From positions 62,001 to 126,000 of the forward strand of contig SHMT01000006.1 in the NCBI GenBank assembly GCA_004282745.1: DNA of 64,000 bases. Direction: 5' to 3'. The notes under the pieces are model-generated. The model worked only from the letters and a program-made list of their open reading frames with translations, did not search any database and was not told the origin of the DNA. The stretch comes from Candidatus Scalindua sp. SCAELEC01 (GTDB taxonomy: Bacteria > Planctomycetota > Brocadiia > Brocadiales > Scalinduaceae). Position numbers and translations under genes: made by a program. This document shows, one piece after another, positions 36,123 through 51,100 of this stretch; the stretch's first letter is position 1; each line of letters starts with the position of its first letter.

Positions 36123-38231
36123 CTATTGTATTTCAGATTCAGCAAGCTCTTCATCCTTCAAGGCAGCTTTTCTACTCAGCTTTACCCGTTTCTGGTCATC
36201 AATTCCTATAATTTTTACCTTAATCTCTTGTCCCTCTTTAACGACATCATCAACTTTTTCTATAAAATCATTTGAAAGCTCTGAAATATGGACCAAACCT
36301 TCTCTGCCAGGCATTATTTCCACAAATGCACCGTACTCTTTCACGGTAATTACCCGGCCTAAATAGGTTTTTCCAATTTCTAATTCGTCCGTGAGCCCTT
36401 TGATATATGCTTTTGCTTTTTCTACAGATTCAAGAGACATCGATGAGATGACAATTGTTCCATCATTATCGATTTCTACACGCGAATCAGAGTCTTCTTG
36501 GATCCTCTTTATTGTCTTTCCTCCTGGTCCAATAACAAGGCCTATCTTCTCAGGATTTATTTTGATCTTTAGGAGTTTGGGTGCGTGTACGGAAATAGCG
36601 CTCCGAGGTTTTTCAATGGCGGCGCTTATCTCCTTTAAAATGTGCATTCTTCCCTCTTTAGCCTGTTCAAGGGCGTCTCGCAAAATCTGCTCGGTAATAC
36701 CCGATATCTTTACGTCCATTTGGAGTGCCGTAATGCCTTTCTCTGTTCCGGCAACTTTGAAATCCATATCACCAAAATGGTCCTCACCTCCCAAAATATC
36801 AGACAAAATACAAACCTCTTCACCCTCTTTTACGAGCCCCATTGCTATTCCAGCAACCGGACGTTTTATTGGTATTCCTGCATCCATCATGCAGAGAGTG
36901 CCTCCGCACACAGTAGCCATCGATGAGGATCCGTTAGATTCAAGAACATCCGATACTATTCGGACCGTATAAGGAAAATCTTCATATGCGGGCATCATAG
37001 GTTCAAGAGACTTTTCTGCCAAAGCACCATGTCCTATTTCTCTTCGGCCGGGACCACGAATTGGCCTAACTTCACCGACGCAGAAAGAGGGAAAATTGTA
37101 ATCAAGCATAAATCTTTTCTTATACTCATCTGTCAAACCATCAACACGTTGTTCATCAATAGAAGTGCCAAGTGTAGAAACTACAAGGGCTTGGGTTTCT
37201 CCCCGGGTAAACAGTGCTGAGCCATGCGTTCTTGGTAAAAAGCCTACTTCACATGTGATTGGTCTGATATCTTTAAGGCCCCTGCCATCTACTCTTTTCC
37301 TCTCTTTGACAATCTGTTCTCTGACAACCTGGGCTTCAAGCTTTTCAAAAGCGTCCTTAACCATCCCTTCACTGACTTCGCTCTCCGGGTCTACACAATA
37401 TTCGTCAATAACTTTGCTCCGTATCTCGCGCAACACCCCATCACGGACGTGCTTGCCTAAAACCTTGGACTTCTCTTTAAACTCATCGTATACCTTAGCC
37501 TTTATCTCATCAAAAAGTGAAGTATCAGTCTCCTCTTCGGGAACCACTTGTTTCTCTTTAATACATTGTAAAGCAAGATCTTTCTGCATCTTTACCATCT
37601 TCTGGATCGCTTGAAAGCCAAACATGATGGCATCAACACATTTATCCTCTGAAATCTCTTTTCCCGCAGACTCTACCATCATAACATGATCTTCAGTCCC
37701 GGAAACGACGAGGTTGAGATCGCTAGTTTCAAGTTCAGATTTTTTAGGATTAATCACAAATTCATCATTTATCATGCCAACCCTAACCGCAGCTACAGGT
37801 CCGTTAAAGGGCATGTCTGAAATTGCAACCGCAGCAGATGCACCAACCATAGCAAGAACATCAGGATCATTTTCCCCATCGGCAGAGAGTACCATTGTCA
37901 TAATCTGTACTTCATTAAAATAATTCTTCGGGAAGAGTGGTCGCATTGGCCTATCTATCAACCGCATCGTTAAAATTTCTTTAGCGGTAGGCCTGCTCTC
38001 TCGTTTGTAAAATCCACCCGGAAATTTTCCGGCTGCATAAGTCTTTTCTCGATAATCAACTGTTAAAGGGAAAAAACCGGCGCCGGCTTTAGAATCTCCA
38101 GATGTAGCAGTTGCCAATATTACGTTGTCTCCACAGCGAACAATAACTGCACCGTTCGCTTGTTTTGCAACCTCCCCGGTTTCGATGCTTATCACACTAT
38201 TACCAACAGTCTCTTCTACCTTCAATTTCAC
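36123..38231 (-). CDS. pnp: Polynucleotide phosphorylase
   Basis: PNPase degrades RNA 3'-5' by phosphorolysis and is part of the degradosome. Two RNase PH-like halves are visible: GGFYKRESRPT and LIDRPMRPLFP in the first, GRREIGHGALAE and GGTLCMMDAG in the second. A KH domain (GLVIGPGGKTIKRIQE) and an S1 domain (KEYGAFVEIMPGREGLVHISE) follow. 702 residues is normal. The start is GTG 38231 with AGGGG upstream. rpsO lies 15 bp upstream, the classic rpsO-pnp arrangement, which usually allows autoregulation by RNA processing. Confidence 0.97.
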   Translation of the reverse strand: MKLKVEETVGNSVISIETGEVAKQANGAVIVRCGDNVILATATSGDSKAGAGFFPLTVDYREKTYAAGKFPGGFYKRESRPTAKEILTMRLIDRPMRPLFPKNYFNEVQIMTMVLSADGENDPDVLAMVGASAAVAISDMPFNGPVAAVRVGMINDEFVINPKKSELETSDLNLVVSGTEDHVMMVESAGKEISEDKCVDAIMFGFQAIQKMVKMQKDLALQCIKEKQVVPEEETDTSLFDEIKAKVYDEFKEKSKVLGKHVRDGVLREIRSKVIDEYCVDPESEVSEGMVKDAFEKLEAQVVREQIVKERKRVDGRGLKDIRPITCEVGFLPRTHGSALFTRGETQALVVSTLGTSIDEQRVDGLTDEYKKRFMLDYNFPSFCVGEVRPIRGPGRREIGHGALAEKSLEPMMPAYEDFPYTVRIVSDVLESNGSSSMATVCGGTLCMMDAGIPIKRPVAGIAMGLVKEGEEVCILSDILGGEDHFGDMDFKVAGTEKGITALQMDVKISGITEQILRDALEQAKEGRMHILKEISAAIEKPRSAISVHAPKLLKIKINPEKIGLVIGPGGKTIKRIQEDSDSRVEIDNDGTIVISSMSLESVEKAKAYIKGLTDELEIGKTYLGRVITVKEYGAFVEIMPGREGLVHISELSNDFIEKVDDVVKEGQEIKVKIIGIDDQKRVKLSRKAALKDEELAESEIQ

Positions 38232-38246
38232 TATGACACCCCTTTA

Positions 38247-38525
38247 TCAGCTAATTTTTCTACGTATACCCAGTTTTTCTATCAAACTCTTGTAGCACGC
38301 CTCATCTTTTTTATTAAGATATTTGAGCAGCGAGGCCCTTTTGCCTACCATCATAAATAAACCACGCCTCGACGTATGGTCTTTCTTGTGGCCTTGGAGA
38401 TGGCTACTCAAGTGTTTGATTCGTTCGGTTAGCAAAGCGACTTGAATTTCAGGTGAACCGGTGTCACTATCGTGCTGCTTGTAATCCTCAATGAGTTGCT
38501 TCTTTTGCTCTTTCTCTATACCCAT
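38247..38525 (-). CDS. rpsO: 30S ribosomal protein S15
   Basis: S15 binds 16S rRNA early in assembly of the small subunit platform. [33 protein letters not shown] and KRASLLKYL are diagnostic. The start is ATG 38525 with AGGAG 8 nt upstream. That gives 92 residues, close to the usual 89; the frame reaches 38564 without support. It is co-transcribed with pnp. Confidence 0.97.
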
Positions 38526-38590
38526 AATTATATCTCCTACTAAATTGTGCTTACTATAGCACAAAGGTTTTTAAATTATCAACAAAAAAC

Positions 38591-41068
38591 TTACTTTTCA
38601 GAGGTCCCAATCTTTAATGCAATTTCATTCATGGAAGATAGTGACAATTCATTTGACTCAACAAGAAAGGTTGCGATCATAAAATTGTTTAAACAAGATA
38701 TCGTGCTGAATCTCCCTTTTGAATCTTTAAAGGTTTCGAAAATTTTCGGGCCTGCAACTTTTTCTTCTCCCCATGATTTCTTTAACGCTTTGAGATTATT
38801 ATATGCTGCCATTGCCGACGATTTGTCTCTGTAGCGAACGATGAGTACCTTATAGGGTAAACGGTTACCCGCAGGATTAAACTCTGCGACTACGGCATCT
38901 GTATCTTTGCTCAGGTTTAAGATGTTGTCTTTCATAAATCTGTCGGCAAGAGAGACATTATCAAGATTAATCTTTTCATGGAAAAACCGCATACTTCCTT
39001 CTCGGTACCCCTTTTCAGGCATGAGCCTTATTATGTCAGGTTCCCGTACATCACCGGGAGGAAGATTCTGTACCAGAGAAAAACCGAGAGTTGTCACATC
39101 TTCAGGTGTAATATTGTCCGTGTAAGGTTCAATACATACAAAATACCTACCGTGCCATATCCACAGGTAATTTTCAAATAACGATGCCTTGTGACCTATC
39201 TCCACACTCTGACCTGCTTGGTCCTTAGCAAAGACACCAAAGGCGTCATCTGAATTACCAAATTCCCAGATATCAATTTTGATAGATTTTTCAGTTGATT
39301 TGATGCGATATTTTGCGGTAGAAACGCGAATAAAGGAGTAGGCTAAATAGGTCTCAGCACCTCCATTGATATATTCAAAGAGTTTCCGACTGCCGCGGTA
39401 TACGTCCGGTTTCCCGTCTCTCTGCCAGAGGGCAATCGATTCGGGGAGGAATCCATCCGTCACACTCTCTATTTTTTTGATCTTTTCTTGAGGCTGGATC
39501 CCTTCTACCACGATTGCAGATTGTCCGGATACCGGACAAACCTTCTCACAAAAACCACATCCGATACAAACCTCTTCTCTCACAAATACCCTTCTAATTT
39601 CCTTGCCATCTTCATGGAAATAGGTATTAAAATGTATCGCTTTTGTGGGGACAGGGCAGACCTCTTCGCAGACACCGCAATTGACGTCTTTCCAGTTTTT
39701 TTCGAGTTCCGGTAACCCTGCGTAAGCTACCCAGGGGATGCACCGGTTCCTGTTTATCCTGGCCTTGCCGATAGCCAATTTTTGTTTTCTCTCTTTCGGA
39801 AGTTTGGTAATTGCACCGGAAGGACAAACCCTGGTGCAAAGGACGCAATCATACGCACAATATCCAATACGCGGAATCAGCTGCGGAGTCCACACCCCGC
39901 TCAGATCAGCCTCCAGGATCGTAGGGTGTAAACCATTTGTTTTGCATACCCTCATACATTCACCACATCTGATACATTTCGCAATAAAGATATTCTCCGG
40001 TTGTGATCCTGGAGGACGGATAATGCCAAGAGCTCCTCCTCCCTTTTTTTTGTGAAAGTTCAGTGAGAGGAGAGGTGCTGAAACGATACTGGCTGCACAA
40101 GCCGTAAACAGACCGCGTCTCGTTAAATCAATGGGGAGTGCTTGTTCTGCTGGTTGTCTAAGTGTAAACCAGACAGCCCCGGTATGGCAGATATCCTGAC
40201 ATTTCATGCAGAGGATACACTCACCATCCTGGGTTTTTTTCCCCGTTTCGTCAATGGCCCCCATTTTACACTCCACATTACATCTATTACACCCATCACA
40301 CATATTGTTCCCTACTACCCGTTTAAAGAGAGACCAATCGGATATCAAGGAAAACAGTGCACCCAAAGGACAGAGATTTCGGCACCAATATCTTTTATAA
40401 AAAAGACCGAGGGAGACAATTCCCGTAAAGAGTATCAAGAAGGTAAGGTGTCCTCTGAAAAAGGGAGCATGCTGGGAGAACAATATCTCCTTTAAAAAGC
40501 TATGGATCCTATCGCTTACAAAGCTAATGAGAGGAAAACCGTGAAGGTAACCAAAGAGTGAGTCTATGAGGGAGACACAATAGGGATGTATAACAATGGT
40601 ATACGCGTTTGTTGCAATGCTGAGCGGATCGAACCACCCAACCATTTGGTAGCTGATAAACAGGCTCAGAAGAAGAAAGGCGAGAAGATAATATTTAAGC
40701 CTTTTCCCATCATAAATCTTATAAGAGACCTTATCTCTCTGTGAGGTAAGTAGCCTATCCGTGACGTCAAGGGTGGTACCAAGAGGGCATATCCAACCAC
40801 AGAAGAATCGACCGAGGAAGAGAGAGGCGATCAAAACAAGGATCGCAGGCCAATAGTGAAAAATAAACTCTCTGGCAGCCACCATTGCCCCGATAGCGGA
40901 AAGGGGACTCGACCGTAGGAAAAAGTTTACCGATCTGTCTGTTTCGGCAATGGGGTCAGAAAATATGAGAAGAATAAGAAATAGGGCAAAAAGAGTTCCC
41001 TGTACAATGAGCCTTATCTTATAAGCTAATGAGCCTTTTTTCGTAAATACTTTACTCTGTTTTGTCAT
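38591..41068 (-). CDS. NapH/NapG-like polyferredoxin fusion with C-terminal DUF6599-like domain
   Basis: An 825-residue membrane redox protein. The N-terminal part has about five transmembrane helices with two CxxxCP motifs (CGWICPLG, CRNLCPLG), as in NapH/NosR quinol oxidases, followed by two ferredoxin clusters (CDGCNRCNVEC, CILCMKCQDIC). In the middle a Tat-like sequence, TRRGLFTACAASI, starts a NapG-like part with four more cluster motifs, including CIRCGECMRVC and CIGCGFCEKVCP. The last about 280 residues carry no cysteine cluster and resemble the DUF6599 domain (FEYINGGAETYLAY). It should pass electrons from quinol to a periplasmic acceptor. The fusion order suggests ancestral napH and napG joined in frame. 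Confidence 0.88.
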   Translation of the reverse strand: MTKQSKVFTKKGSLAYKIRLIVQGTLFALFLILLIFSDPIAETDRSVNFFLRSSPLSAIGAMVAAREFIFHYWPAILVLIASLFLGRFFCGWICPLGTTLDVTDRLLTSQRDKVSYKIYDGKRLKYYLLAFLLLSLFISYQMVGWFDPLSIATNAYTIVIHPYCVSLIDSLFGYLHGFPLISFVSDRIHSFLKEILFSQHAPFFRGHLTFLILFTGIVSLGLFYKRYWCRNLCPLGALFSLISDWSLFKRVVGNNMCDGCNRCNVECKMGAIDETGKKTQDGECILCMKCQDICHTGAVWFTLRQPAEQALPIDLTRRGLFTACAASIVSAPLLSLNFHKKKGGGALGIIRPPGSQPENIFIAKCIRCGECMRVCKTNGLHPTILEADLSGVWTPQLIPRIGYCAYDCVLCTRVCPSGAITKLPKERKQKLAIGKARINRNRCIPWVAYAGLPELEKNWKDVNCGVCEEVCPVPTKAIHFNTYFHEDGKEIRRVFVREEVCIGCGFCEKVCPVSGQSAIVVEGIQPQEKIKKIESVTDGFLPESIALWQRDGKPDVYRGSRKLFEYINGGAETYLAYSFIRVSTAKYRIKSTEKSIKIDIWEFGNSDDAFGVFAKDQAGQSVEIGHKASLFENYLWIWHGRYFVCIEPYTDNITPEDVTTLGFSLVQNLPPGDVREPDIIRLMPEKGYREGSMRFFHEKINLDNVSLADRFMKDNILNLSKDTDAVVAEFNPAGNRLPYKVLIVRYRDKSSAMAAYNNLKALKKSWGEEKVAGPKIFETFKDSKGRFSTISCLNNFMIATFLVESNELSLSSMNEIALKIGTSEK

Positions 41069-41190: not shown

Positions 41191-41358
41191 CTAACCTTAC
41201 CATACAACAGCTGTCAACGCAATAAGTGTGTAGGTTGTGTCACAACAATTGAATTCACATATATTGATGAAAGGATTGAAAAATTTGCCTTGAACATGGA
41301 GAAAACTAACAAACAGAGAGACTGCTTAGGAAAAATTCTAACGAAGGAATCTTGCATA

Positions 41359-41390
41359 AATGTAAGAAATATTCTACAATGTAAGAATAT
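41359..41390 (+). promoter_or_regulatory. Direct repeats upstream of the antitoxin gene
   Basis: AATGTAAGAAAT (41359-41370) and AATGTAAGAATAT (41378-41390) are spaced 19 bp apart, about two helical turns, and sit 20-50 bp upstream of the AbrB-type start. AbrB antitoxins usually repress their own promoter through such repeats. That role is inferred. Confidence 0.4.
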
Positions 41391-41409
41391 TTTTAAAAAG
41401 GAGGACAAA

Positions 41410-41667
41410 ATGCCTGTTTCAACACTAACATCAAAGGGTCAAATGACTATACCAAAAGAGGTGAGAAATGCCTTAAACTTAAAACCATCTGAAAAGGTTA
41501 TTATCGTCGTTGAAGGAGACCATGCTATTATTAAACCTCTCAGAGGTAACATCCTGGATATTGGAGGCTCAATCAGGATACCCGATAAGGAAAAACCTGT
41601 AGATTTTTATAAGCTCAGGGAAGAGGTCAAAAAAAGAATCGCAAAAAAGGTAGCAAAAGGTGATTAA
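41410..41667 (+). CDS. AbrB/SpoVT-type antitoxin
   Basis: An 85-residue swapped-hairpin DNA-binding protein: STLTSKGQMTIPKEVRNALNL is the AbrB-fold signature. A C-terminal tail (about 50-85) should wrap the toxin. ATG 41410 has AGGAGG 7 nt upstream; the frame extends to 41290 but that part covers the probable operator. It is 3 bp from the PIN-domain toxin gene, so the two form one transcription unit. Confidence 0.92.
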   Translation: MPVSTLTSKGQMTIPKEVRNALNLKPSEKVIIVVEGDHAIIKPLRGNILDIGGSIRIPDKEKPVDFYKLREEVKKRIAKKVAKGD

Positions 41668-41670
41668 ACC

Positions 41671-42078
41671 ATGAACAAAAAGTTTATTGATACAAACATA
41701 TTTCTCAGGTATCTGACAAAGGATGATCCTTTAAAATATGATAAATGTAAAAGGCTCTTTAAAAAAACGATTGAAGGCAAATTAGACTTGGTTACATCTG
41801 GAATGGTCATTGCTGAATTGGTATGGACGTTACGTTCTTATTATAAAGTCTCAAAAGCCGATGTTATTGAGAAAATCTCTATTATAGTCAGTACTCAGTA
41901 TCTATTCATACCGGAAAAAGACATCATAGTTGATGCACTTGTACTTTACGGCCGAAAAAACATTGATTACATTGATGCTTATAACGCTGTTTTTATGAAA
42001 TATCACGGCTTAAGCGAGGTGTACTCATATGATACAGACTTTGATTCGATTGAAAGCATAAAGAGAGAGGAACCTTAA
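41671..42078 (+). CDS. PIN-domain toxin (VapC family)
   Basis: A 135-residue PIN ribonuclease. The acidic metal-binding residues appear in order: D in FIDTNIFLRYL, E in VIAELVWTL, D in IDYIDAYNAV, and D in YDTDFD. VapC toxins cleave initiator tRNA, rRNA or other tRNAs when freed from the antitoxin. The family and an intact active site are visible; the target is not. Confidence 0.92.
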   Translation: MNKKFIDTNIFLRYLTKDDPLKYDKCKRLFKKTIEGKLDLVTSGMVIAELVWTLRSYYKVSKADVIEKISIIVSTQYLFIPEKDIIVDALVLYGRKNIDYIDAYNAVFMKYHGLSEVYSYDTDFDSIESIKREEP

Positions 42079-49435: not shown

Positions 49436-49436
49436 C
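49292..49436. repeat. Family B palindromic element at a stop codon
   Basis: The arms are TGGTTGAACGAAAAGTGCCC on the left and GTAGATGGGTAGTTTTGG, then TTTAACCCC, on the right. The centre carries an extra GTGCTTAAATGCTAAAGCAC hairpin. The right edge plus the flanking TA (49437-49438) spells the TAG stop of the minus-strand apbE gene. Confidence 0.75.
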
Positions 49437-51100
49437 TAACTACCCGTAATGACAACGTCCGACTTTGGAGCTTTCTGAGACTCTTTAAAGAGACCTTTCA
49501 TGCCTCTCGATGTTTTGACTCGTAGGGCTTTACTATCATCCTCATAAACAATAATGCCTTCAACATCAGATAGTTTTTCAATCAGTTTCATCCCTTCATT
49601 CAAACCCAGGACAAAGACTCCGGTTGAGAGGGCGTCTGCTTTAGTGGCACTGTCTGCAATTATGGTAACACTTGCGATACCCTGAACAGGCTTTCCTGTC
49701 CTGGGGTCAATGATATGAGAATATCTTTCGCCATTCATTGTAAAAAACTTTTCGTAATCTCCGGAGGTGGAAACGGCCTTACCGGTAATCTCAAAAGAGC
49801 CAAGAATCTCCTTGTTGTTGCGCGGATTTTGCAAGCCGATAATCCACGATTTCCTTCCGGGTGGTGAACCGGAGGCATACACATTTCCCGCAAAATTTAT
49901 TAATGCGGACCTTATCCCGTTTTTGTGAAGCCTCTTCATTGCCACGTCAACCGCATATCCCTTTCCAATCCCTCCTAAGTCTACCTGGGTGTGAGGATTC
50001 GCAAATGATATGACCTTTTCACTGCTTGAACCTCGAAGCAGAGATTTAGTAGTCTTCTCTTCAATATGAATATTTTTGTACGATACCGCTTGCAGTACTG
50101 ATTCCAACTCCTTCTTGTCCGGTATCCTCCCCTGCTCCTTAAAAAATCCCCACTTCTTCATAAGGGGCCCAATGGTAATGTCAAAGGCCCCTTTTGTGAT
50201 ATCTCCATACTGTATGGACTGTTCGATGATGTATGCAAGTTCATCGTCACAGGCAACGGGTTCTGATACCGCTTTTTGATTGATCTTTGAAAGGTCACTC
50301 TGCGTTTTATAATTGCTCATTAAATTGTCAAGCCTGTTAACTTCATTAAATACTTCATTGAATACCTTTTCGGCCTCACTTTTGTCCGAAATATAGGCGG
50401 AAATATCAAACACAGTCCCCATGCTCATGATAGCTTTTTTGAGCAATTTCGGTTCAATATGTTCTCTTTTTCCCTTGAATTGAACCTGCTTTAACGAACT
50501 TAAATCACCCCCTCTTTTTCCGCTAAGATAGTACTCTTCAATTACACCAAGTACCTTTTTGACACCCGTACACATGGTAACGACAGACATGGTTGCGCCG
50601 GTAATATTAATGATGTCCCTATTAATACGGATACGATTCTTGAGAGATTTCCCCTTAAACTGATGGAGAAATCTTTTATTCATGATCTCACCACCTCGAC
50701 TTTCTCGATAAATGAGTACGGCTATATGGCGAATCTCACCTTCCGGATTTGATGAAACAATGAAGGTGTAGGGGTGGAACTTCCCCACCTCTTCAGTAAT
50801 TATTGCATATCCTTGAACGACACCCGATCTGCTACCAATGTAAACAGTGAAGTGGTCCTCAAATATCTTTCTTTTCAGTCTCTTTTGAAGGCGATTAATT
50901 TCCTCTGGGGTAGGAATTACCTCATCGTAAACGATAGAATCACAATCGGGAAATGTCTGCTGAAGCGCCTGTTCCGGTGTAAGAAATACCTGAATATCGT
51001 AGTTCTCCGCAGACTCCTCTTTGTAATCAGCGTGTCCGCTAGGTTGTGCAATAACGGTAACCAATACGGTTACAAATAACAGAAAAAGTTTTGTTTTCAT
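49436..51100 (-). CDS. apbE: Fusion of FMN-binding domain and FAD:protein FMN transferase
   Basis: A 554-residue exported protein with a signal peptide at about 1-24 (IAQPSGHA). The first half is an FMN-binding domain of the NqrC/RnfG/NosR type, ending in NITGATMSVVTM. The [S/T]GATxS sequence is the threonine acceptor of covalently bound FMN. The second half (about 215-540) is ApbE, which moves FMN from FAD to that threonine: MGTVFDISAY, DLGGIGKGYAVD, SGDYEKFF, HIIDPRTGKP and ADSATKADALSTG. It should therefore flavinylate itself, and may also serve others. It may join the electron route of the polyferredoxin at 38591. The TAG stop lies at the edge of a repeat. Confidence 0.92.
   Translation of the reverse strand: MKTKLFLLFVTVLVTVIAQPSGHADYKEESAENYDIQVFLTPEQALQQTFPDCDSIVYDEVIPTPEEINRLQKRLKRKIFEDHFTVYIGSRSGVVQGYAIITEEVGKFHPYTFIVSSNPEGEIRHIAVLIYRESRGGEIMNKRFLHQFKGKSLKNRIRINRDIINITGATMSVVTMCTGVKKVLGVIEEYYLSGKRGGDLSSLKQVQFKGKREHIEPKLLKKAIMSMGTVFDISAYISDKSEAEKVFNEVFNEVNRLDNLMSNYKTQSDLSKINQKAVSEPVACDDELAYIIEQSIQYGDITKGAFDITIGPLMKKWGFFKEQGRIPDKKELESVLQAVSYKNIHIEEKTTKSLLRGSSSEKVISFANPHTQVDLGGIGKGYAVDVAMKRLHKNGIRSALINFAGNVYASGSPPGRKSWIIGLQNPRNNKEILGSFEITGKAVSTSGDYEKFFTMNGERYSHIIDPRTGKPVQGIASVTIIADSATKADALSTGVFVLGLNEGMKLIEKLSDVEGIIVYEDDSKALRVKTSRGMKGLFKESQKAPKSDVVITGS

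Follow-up and report, generated by a model that had tools for sequence, protein, structure and literature searches.

The window analysed here is a stretch of 64,000 nucleotides from the 4.59 Mb draft genome of Candidatus Scalindua sp. SCAELEC01. Its minus strand carries a single intact frame (38591-41068; ATG at 41068, no internal stops) for a protein of 825 residues, whose features are listed in Table 1 with those of its surroundings. In Pfam, the protein was matched by Fer4_5, by Fer4 many times and, at residues 548-733, by DUF6599 (PF20244; E 8e-24, 84.7 bits against a gathering cut-off of 27); the DUF6599-like tail proposed in an earlier note on this DNA was thereby confirmed. The NapH-like part has four strong hydrophobic peaks on the Kyte-Doolittle scale (residues 18-36, 76-94, 128-146 and 206-224). 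The 4Fe-4S sites of the NapG-like part are at residues 365-375, 404-415 (CxxxCxxCxxxC), 443 with 464-471 (Cx20CxxCxxxC) and 501-511, two of the four being of non-classical spacing. The whole protein has six 4Fe-4S sites and two CxxxCP motifs. The earlier note had given the same count from the sequence, with four of the 4Fe-4S motifs placed after a Tat-like segment, and its reading of one chain, NapH-like and then NapG-like, is borne out by the 825-residue frame and the profile matches.

Table 1. Features of the polyferredoxin gene, its neighbours in the window and the tatC gene of the same genome
Feature	Position	Strand	Basis or remark
Whole gene, NapH-NapG polyferredoxin with DUF6599 tail	38591-41068	-	825 aa; profile matches, relatives
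NapH-like membrane part, residues 1-300	40169-41068	-	Kyte-Doolittle peaks; TIGR02163 E 2.6e-26, under cut-off
CxxxCP motif, residues 90-95	40784-40801	-	present in 50/51 Brocadiales rows
CxxxCP motif, residues 229-234	40367-40384	-	present in 50/51 Brocadiales rows
4Fe-4S motif CxxCxxCxxxC, residues 257-267	40268-40300	-	motif and alignment; predicted cytoplasmic side
4Fe-4S motif CxxCxxCxxxC, residues 284-294	40187-40219	-	motif and alignment; predicted cytoplasmic side
Internal Tat-like segment, residues 314-343	40040-40129	-	RR 317-318, helix 320-338, then HKKK
NapG-like part, residues 349-527	39488-40024	-	NF007012 (NapG) E 8.9e-21, under cut-off; four 4Fe-4S sites
Tail, residues 536-825	38594-39463	-	DUF6599 at 548-733; second half modelled as sandwich
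rpsO, next gene downstream	38247-38564	-	named from sequence; not thought functionally tied
pnp, downstream of rpsO	36123-38231	-	named from sequence; not thought functionally tied
MazE-like antitoxin and PIN toxin pair	41290-42078	+	just upstream of the polyferredoxin, next to the probable break
tatC with C-terminal FecR domain	L166:11279-12622 (G000:C96)		divergent to ribH-nusB-ftsY-DUF362

The best NapH match covered residues 209-301 (TIGR02163, 92.7 bits against a cut-off of 213.05) and the best NapG match residues 328-521 (NF007012, 74.2 bits against 269). Since both models match, the protein could be read as an ordinary NapGH quinol dehydrogenase for a periplasmic nitrate reductase, and the NapH and NapG of nitrate reductase operons do share with it the order of CxxxCP helices followed by ferredoxin motifs, with a Tat signal before NapG. 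Those, however, are two proteins, whereas the window encodes one chain, and both scores lie far under the curated family cut-offs. No nap genes were seen beside the polyferredoxin, and none of the 18 matches to TIGR01706 (NapA) in the window genome was above cut-off, which leaves the polyferredoxin with no known acceptor. The Nap nitrate reductase was rejected as partner on the latter ground, and we consider the reading as a whole highly improbable. A common operon with rpsO and pnp was also rejected; their order is kept in several relatives, but it resembles a chromosomal neighbourhood.

Conservation of the frame and relation to known fusions

Among 59 genomes of the anammox order (Brocadiales), one frame of at least 790 residues spans both halves to the end of the tail in 47. 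The gene is cut by contig ends in five genomes (G013, G014, G018, G020 and G044), is a divergent, tail-less polyferredoxin in one (G019) and is lost or broken in six (G024, G039, G045, G053, G047 and G048). The single frame in 47 of the 59 rules out two adjacent genes joined by a sequencing error, a possibility that the earlier note had raised against its own reading. Ten named relatives, mostly Candidatus Scalindua, the others being Planctomycetes, a Brocadiaceae bacterium and an uncultured bacterium, have full-length or nearly full-length counterparts at 67-75% identity, as befits an anammox host from the Scalindua group. Two copies in Brocadiaceae (L067 and L068, in G047 and G048) carry frameshifts and stops; their close relatives are intact and the decay appears recent. 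Outside the order, the two-frame cases examined were a frameshift (G268) and a gene reaching a contig end (G154). No relative was found in the viral contigs searched.

The cysteines were scored in an alignment of 51 Brocadiales rows, from which G047, G048, the L145 fragment of G014 and any additional copy of the window gene had been removed by hand, and which did not include G013; G019 (L066) was scored as the divergent tail-less form and placed among 24 other, more distant rows. The 28 positions comprise 24 cluster cysteines, present in every one of the 51 rows, and four cysteines of the CxxxCP motifs, present in 50 of them. Because the cysteines are kept in 50-51 of the 51 rows, the predicted motif set is not due to chance.

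One fused gene outside the order (G099; L064, minus strand) is open except for a lone in-frame TGA (codon from 9395) at the position of the cluster cysteine Cys375. In this genome, which is about 83% complete, no SelB was found above cut-off and the best tRNA-Sec match was called tRNA-Ser(tga) by ARAGORN; the candidates for the TGA are a mutation, a sequence error and selenocysteine.

Single-chain NapH-NapG proteins that carry a Tat signal inside have been described before, with experiments, and the fusion is ordinary as such. Polyferredoxin fusions of this kind, with a twin arginine preceding TM5, were described together with a list of homologues from several phyla, and reporter fusions in E. 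coli showed that Tat moves the C-terminal part of an already membrane-inserted protein (Tooke et al., 2017; PMC5449189). Among 294 Planctomycetota, 63 had a match at E 1e-30 or better (18 Brocadiales and 45 others), and one match spanned both halves in 26 of the 45 others. The word 'unusual', used for the conduit in the earlier note, was therefore too strong. Known homologues of identical architecture, which that note had named as evidence that would refute it, exist for single-chain NapH-NapG proteins whose Tat signal is internal, whereas for the DUF6599-tailed version none was found in the literature searched.

The closest described case is the polyferredoxin (PFD) of the delta proteobacterium MLMS-1 (Q1NSB0; PMC5449189), which likewise has NapH and NapG in one chain, RR before TM5, a TM5 of low hydrophobicity followed by positive charges and four clusters on the far side. 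It differs from the window protein in that the paper assigns it seven clusters, three of them cytoplasmic, against six 4Fe-4S motifs and two CxxxCP here. Its RR is also found in the window protein, whereas most orthologues of the anammox order (41/51) have KR; the passages on it name neither a DUF6599 tail nor a DUF362 partner. The Streptomyces Rieske protein Sco2149, a dual Sec-Tat protein, resembles the window protein in its even number of Sec helices and Tat-dependent last helix, but its redox domain is unrelated (PMC5449189). New here are the DUF6599 fusion, the constant DUF362 partner and the KR form of the internal signal. NapH-NapG fusions with an internal RR segment were also seen on Bacteroidota plasmid records (L163, L164), with adjoining aldo/keto reductases, that in L163 having ferredoxin motifs and an RR start.

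Internal twin-arginine segment and topology

The earlier note held that the topology of the middle segment decides which side the second half faces, and we agree that this is the key question. The full-length AlphaFold model was poor (mean pLDDT 41) and was set aside, so that hydropathy and precedent are the basis for the topology. With five K/R and no D/E, the first 17 residues are positively charged, which suggests an N-in start; the chain would then return to the cytoplasm, with two clusters there before helix 5. In keeping with the mid-chain Tat-like signal noted earlier, the twin arginine at 317-318 directly precedes helix 5, which is weakly hydrophobic (1.63 against 2.43 for the first helix) and is followed by HKKK; these are Kyte-Doolittle values, whereas apparent free energy was used in the published work (PMC5449189). 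By analogy, Tat-dependent export of the C-terminal half is proposed. A location of the NapG half and tail outside the cytoplasm is supported by precedent, and also because the stand-alone DUF6599 and DUF362 partners of relatives look exported.

Over the 51 Brocadiales rows, the signal motif opens with K 41 times and with R 10 times, and its second residue is invariably R. At the aligned columns, RR is read in 15 of 24 rows from farther afield and KR in two; in six others the second column holds an R but the arginine pair is displaced by one position, and the last row has no coverage there. On the tree, K and R were switched at least five times, four of the switches being forced by well-supported branches. 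According to a 2019 review, KR occurs naturally in just one known Tat substrate, and a single R-to-K change mostly just slows Tat export (PMC6708511). For the KR found here, the choice lies between another naturally occurring instance and a weakening of Tat use.

Since KR prevails in Brocadiales and RR among the more distant rows (15 of 24), most anammox bacteria could have lost recognition by Tat. In that case helix 5 would be a membrane hairpin or cytoplasmic, and the NapG half and tail would serve as a ferredoxin module in the cytoplasm, held at the membrane by an anchor. This appears decidedly unlikely, given the invariant second R, the repeated K/R switches, the mild effect of a single R-to-K change on export (PMC6708511) and the exported appearance of DUF6599 and DUF362 proteins in relatives. 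The frameshifted copy of G047, by contrast, has KK at the twin-arginine position.

Export by Tat would lead to the periplasm or, in anammox cells, perhaps to the anammoxosome lumen. A tatC gene is present in the window genome, and its product bears a FecR domain, as was reported for TatC by Medema et al. (2010; PMC2881027). In the same paper Tat was predicted solely in the anammoxosome membrane; if the prediction holds, the lumen of the organelle would contain the NapG half and the tail.

The DUF6599 tail and the DUF362 gene

In the anammox order, and in two of the 45 other Planctomycetota with a homologue (G099, G197), DUF6599 forms one chain with the polyferredoxin, whereas in 16 of the 45 it is encoded on its own, a short way upstream of a tail-less fusion and on the same strand; these two fractions, taken by coordinates, are the unbiased rates. 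From the Planctomycetota matches, 23 loci outside the anammox order were examined (L064, L065, L069-L073, L103-L114 and L116-L119). There, a stand-alone DUF6599 gene was present in 13 and a DUF362 gene lay directly upstream on the same strand in 20, counts that are not unbiased rates because the loci were partly picked for nearby DUF6599. The occurrence of DUF6599 as a separate gene in one lineage and as a fused domain in another argues that it works with the polyferredoxin. Several of the stand-alone proteins begin with a signal-anchor or lipobox-like sequence.

A model of the tail was obtained from 11 sequences (mean pLDDT 69), with the first half poorly modelled. Foldseek returned nothing at E 0.001 or better with this model. 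In a second comparison, tail residues 141-290 in the model resembled the PknH sensor domain (Z 11.7, 3.4 A over 140 residues) and also TiME (Z 10.9), with RseB, DcrB and PsbP scoring lower. Domains of the PknH sensor, TiME, RseB, DcrB and PsbP type are extracytoplasmic or lumenal, and a sandwich of the PsbP/Mog1/DcrB-like fold is possible for the second half of the tail. The modelled tail resembles these extracytoplasmic domains, and may be a non-redox docking or stabilising domain. A PDB sequence search with a stand-alone DUF6599 relative gave no credible match, and a literature search on DUF6599 found no paper.

The usual gene order is DUF6599-DUF362-polyferredoxin or DUF362-polyferredoxin-tail; in the former, a DUF362 gene with a Tat signal sits between the stand-alone DUF6599 gene and the tail-less fusion. 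By coordinates, DUF362 lies within 3 kb of the polyferredoxin in 17 of the 59 genomes of the anammox order (G001, G002, G004, G005, G018, G019, G023, G026, G027, G029, G031, G033, G036, G038, G041, G049 and G052). RR was flagged in 37 of 38 DUF362 rows, of which about 33 look credible (in L080, L083, L084 and L095 it is apparently upstream of the real start); the single row without RR, L040, is cut by a contig start.

The window genome carries its DUF362 orthologue, which shares 81% identity with the copy at L005, on a different contig (G000:C96), in the order ribH, nusB/PHP, ftsY and DUF362, with a divergent tatC adjoining ribH (ribH, nusB/PHP and ftsY were named from their sequences, without a search). 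At L005 the same series runs on into the polyferredoxin, rpsO and pnp. Because L005 keeps the whole order contiguous, a rearrangement probably separated DUF362 from the polyferredoxin in the window lineage. Several relatives have DUF362 where the window has the MazE/PIN pair. An SRP receptor gene and tatC are both near the ancestral place of a protein expected to need Sec and Tat. Elsewhere in the window (49436-51100, minus strand), an ApbE-family domain (residues 227-516) follows a long N-terminal extension of unknown kind.

Four of the six genomes without an intact polyferredoxin also have no DUF362 orthologue, the sole DUF362 of G024 being a paralogue (30% identical); in G047 a remnant with a frameshift survives on a separate contig, and in G048 the gene is present as partial copies that run off contig ends. 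Among the 53 genomes with a polyferredoxin, seven drafts (G007, G008, G009, G011, G016, G035 and G051) have no DUF362 orthologue, and G046 has the gene in two pieces at contig ends. Fisher's test for joint loss gave p 6.7e-5 with fragments counted as loss and 0.009 with absence only, values that are not true probabilities since the genomes are related; G046 and G048, with pieces at contig ends, and G047 were counted as lost in the former version only. The losses fall in three genera (g10, g14 and g16), each of which also has intact members.

Judged from these gene arrangements, the DUF362 protein is a probable partner of the polyferredoxin. LarA racemases are not electron-transfer proteins. 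DUF362 belongs to the same Pfam clan (PMC11770544), tail-less fusions in Bacteroidota plasmid records adjoin aldo/keto reductases but, in the stretch shown, not DUF362, and tail-less fusions in Planctomycetota stand beside aldo/keto reductases as well as DUF362. It could accordingly be argued that the DUF362 protein is a maturation or cofactor factor, or an independent enzyme, and that the polyferredoxin feeds other extracytoplasmic proteins. We regard this as rather unlikely in view of the conserved gene order and the correlated loss. Nor does larC (nickel insertion) track with DUF362: it is present in 53 of the 59 genomes, including the four that have neither DUF362 nor the polyferredoxin, and a link of DUF362 to the nickel-pincer cofactor was rejected on this ground.

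In some Planctomycetota (L103, 4129-5403; L108, 4394-5629), the gene directly after the polyferredoxin codes for an aldo/keto reductase with a Tat-like start, which makes these enzymes other candidate clients. A PDB sequence search with DUF362 gave nothing credible. Literature on DUF362, as judged from the entries listed and from some passages, held nothing on an arrangement with a polyferredoxin. That on COG2006, PF04015 or PF20244 was mostly unrelated as judged from the entries listed.

Proposed electron route and its meaning

The reading that we favour, and hold to be reasonably probable, is that of a dual Sec/Tat-inserted, quinol-linked conduit whose NapG half and tail are extracytoplasmic and serve the DUF362 protein. 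Sec would insert the four NapH-like helices, with two 4Fe-4S clusters staying in the cytoplasm. Since the weakly hydrophobic helix 5 bears the internal Tat signal, Tat would then move the already folded NapG half, with its four clusters, and the DUF6599 tail to the far side. Electrons very probably pass across the membrane via the six iron-sulfur clusters. By resemblance to NapGH, they would come from the oxidation of quinol, or the flow may run in reverse, and at the other end they would reach a partner outside the cytoplasm. For this role the DUF362 protein, exported by Tat and encoded alongside in many relatives, is the best candidate, and it may accept the electrons for whatever reaction it catalyses. 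The tail, fused here and a separate gene elsewhere, would dock or stabilise without a redox role.

A more specific proposal is offered tentatively, as possible rather than probable. The polyferredoxin with dual Sec/Tat insertion, a LarA-clan DUF362 redox enzyme exported by Tat and DUF6599 as a docking domain may form an undescribed three-part system for electron transfer outside the cytoplasm, common to anammox bacteria and other Planctomycetota, with DUF6599 fused in the anammox order; in most anammox lineages the internal signal would work naturally as KR, being tolerated because Sec already anchors the protein. Literature searches found no published description of the module as a whole.

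The window gene encodes a real protein that is well conserved and follows a published design. Its tail is new, as its partner probably is, and the KR form of the signal in most orthologues is notable. The surprise is modest, since the core design was already published; the extra tail and likely partner point to an electron-transfer system without prior description. The variant offers DUF6599 and DUF362, both of them domains of unknown function, an initial functional setting that can be tested, and adds a family with repeated interchange of KR and RR in an internal Tat signal. To our knowledge, the routes from the quinone pool to the far side of the membrane in anammox bacteria are incompletely known, and the protein is a candidate quinol-linked electron route in these organisms. 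If Tat sits solely in the anammoxosome membrane (PMC2881027), it would also report on targeting to the organelle.
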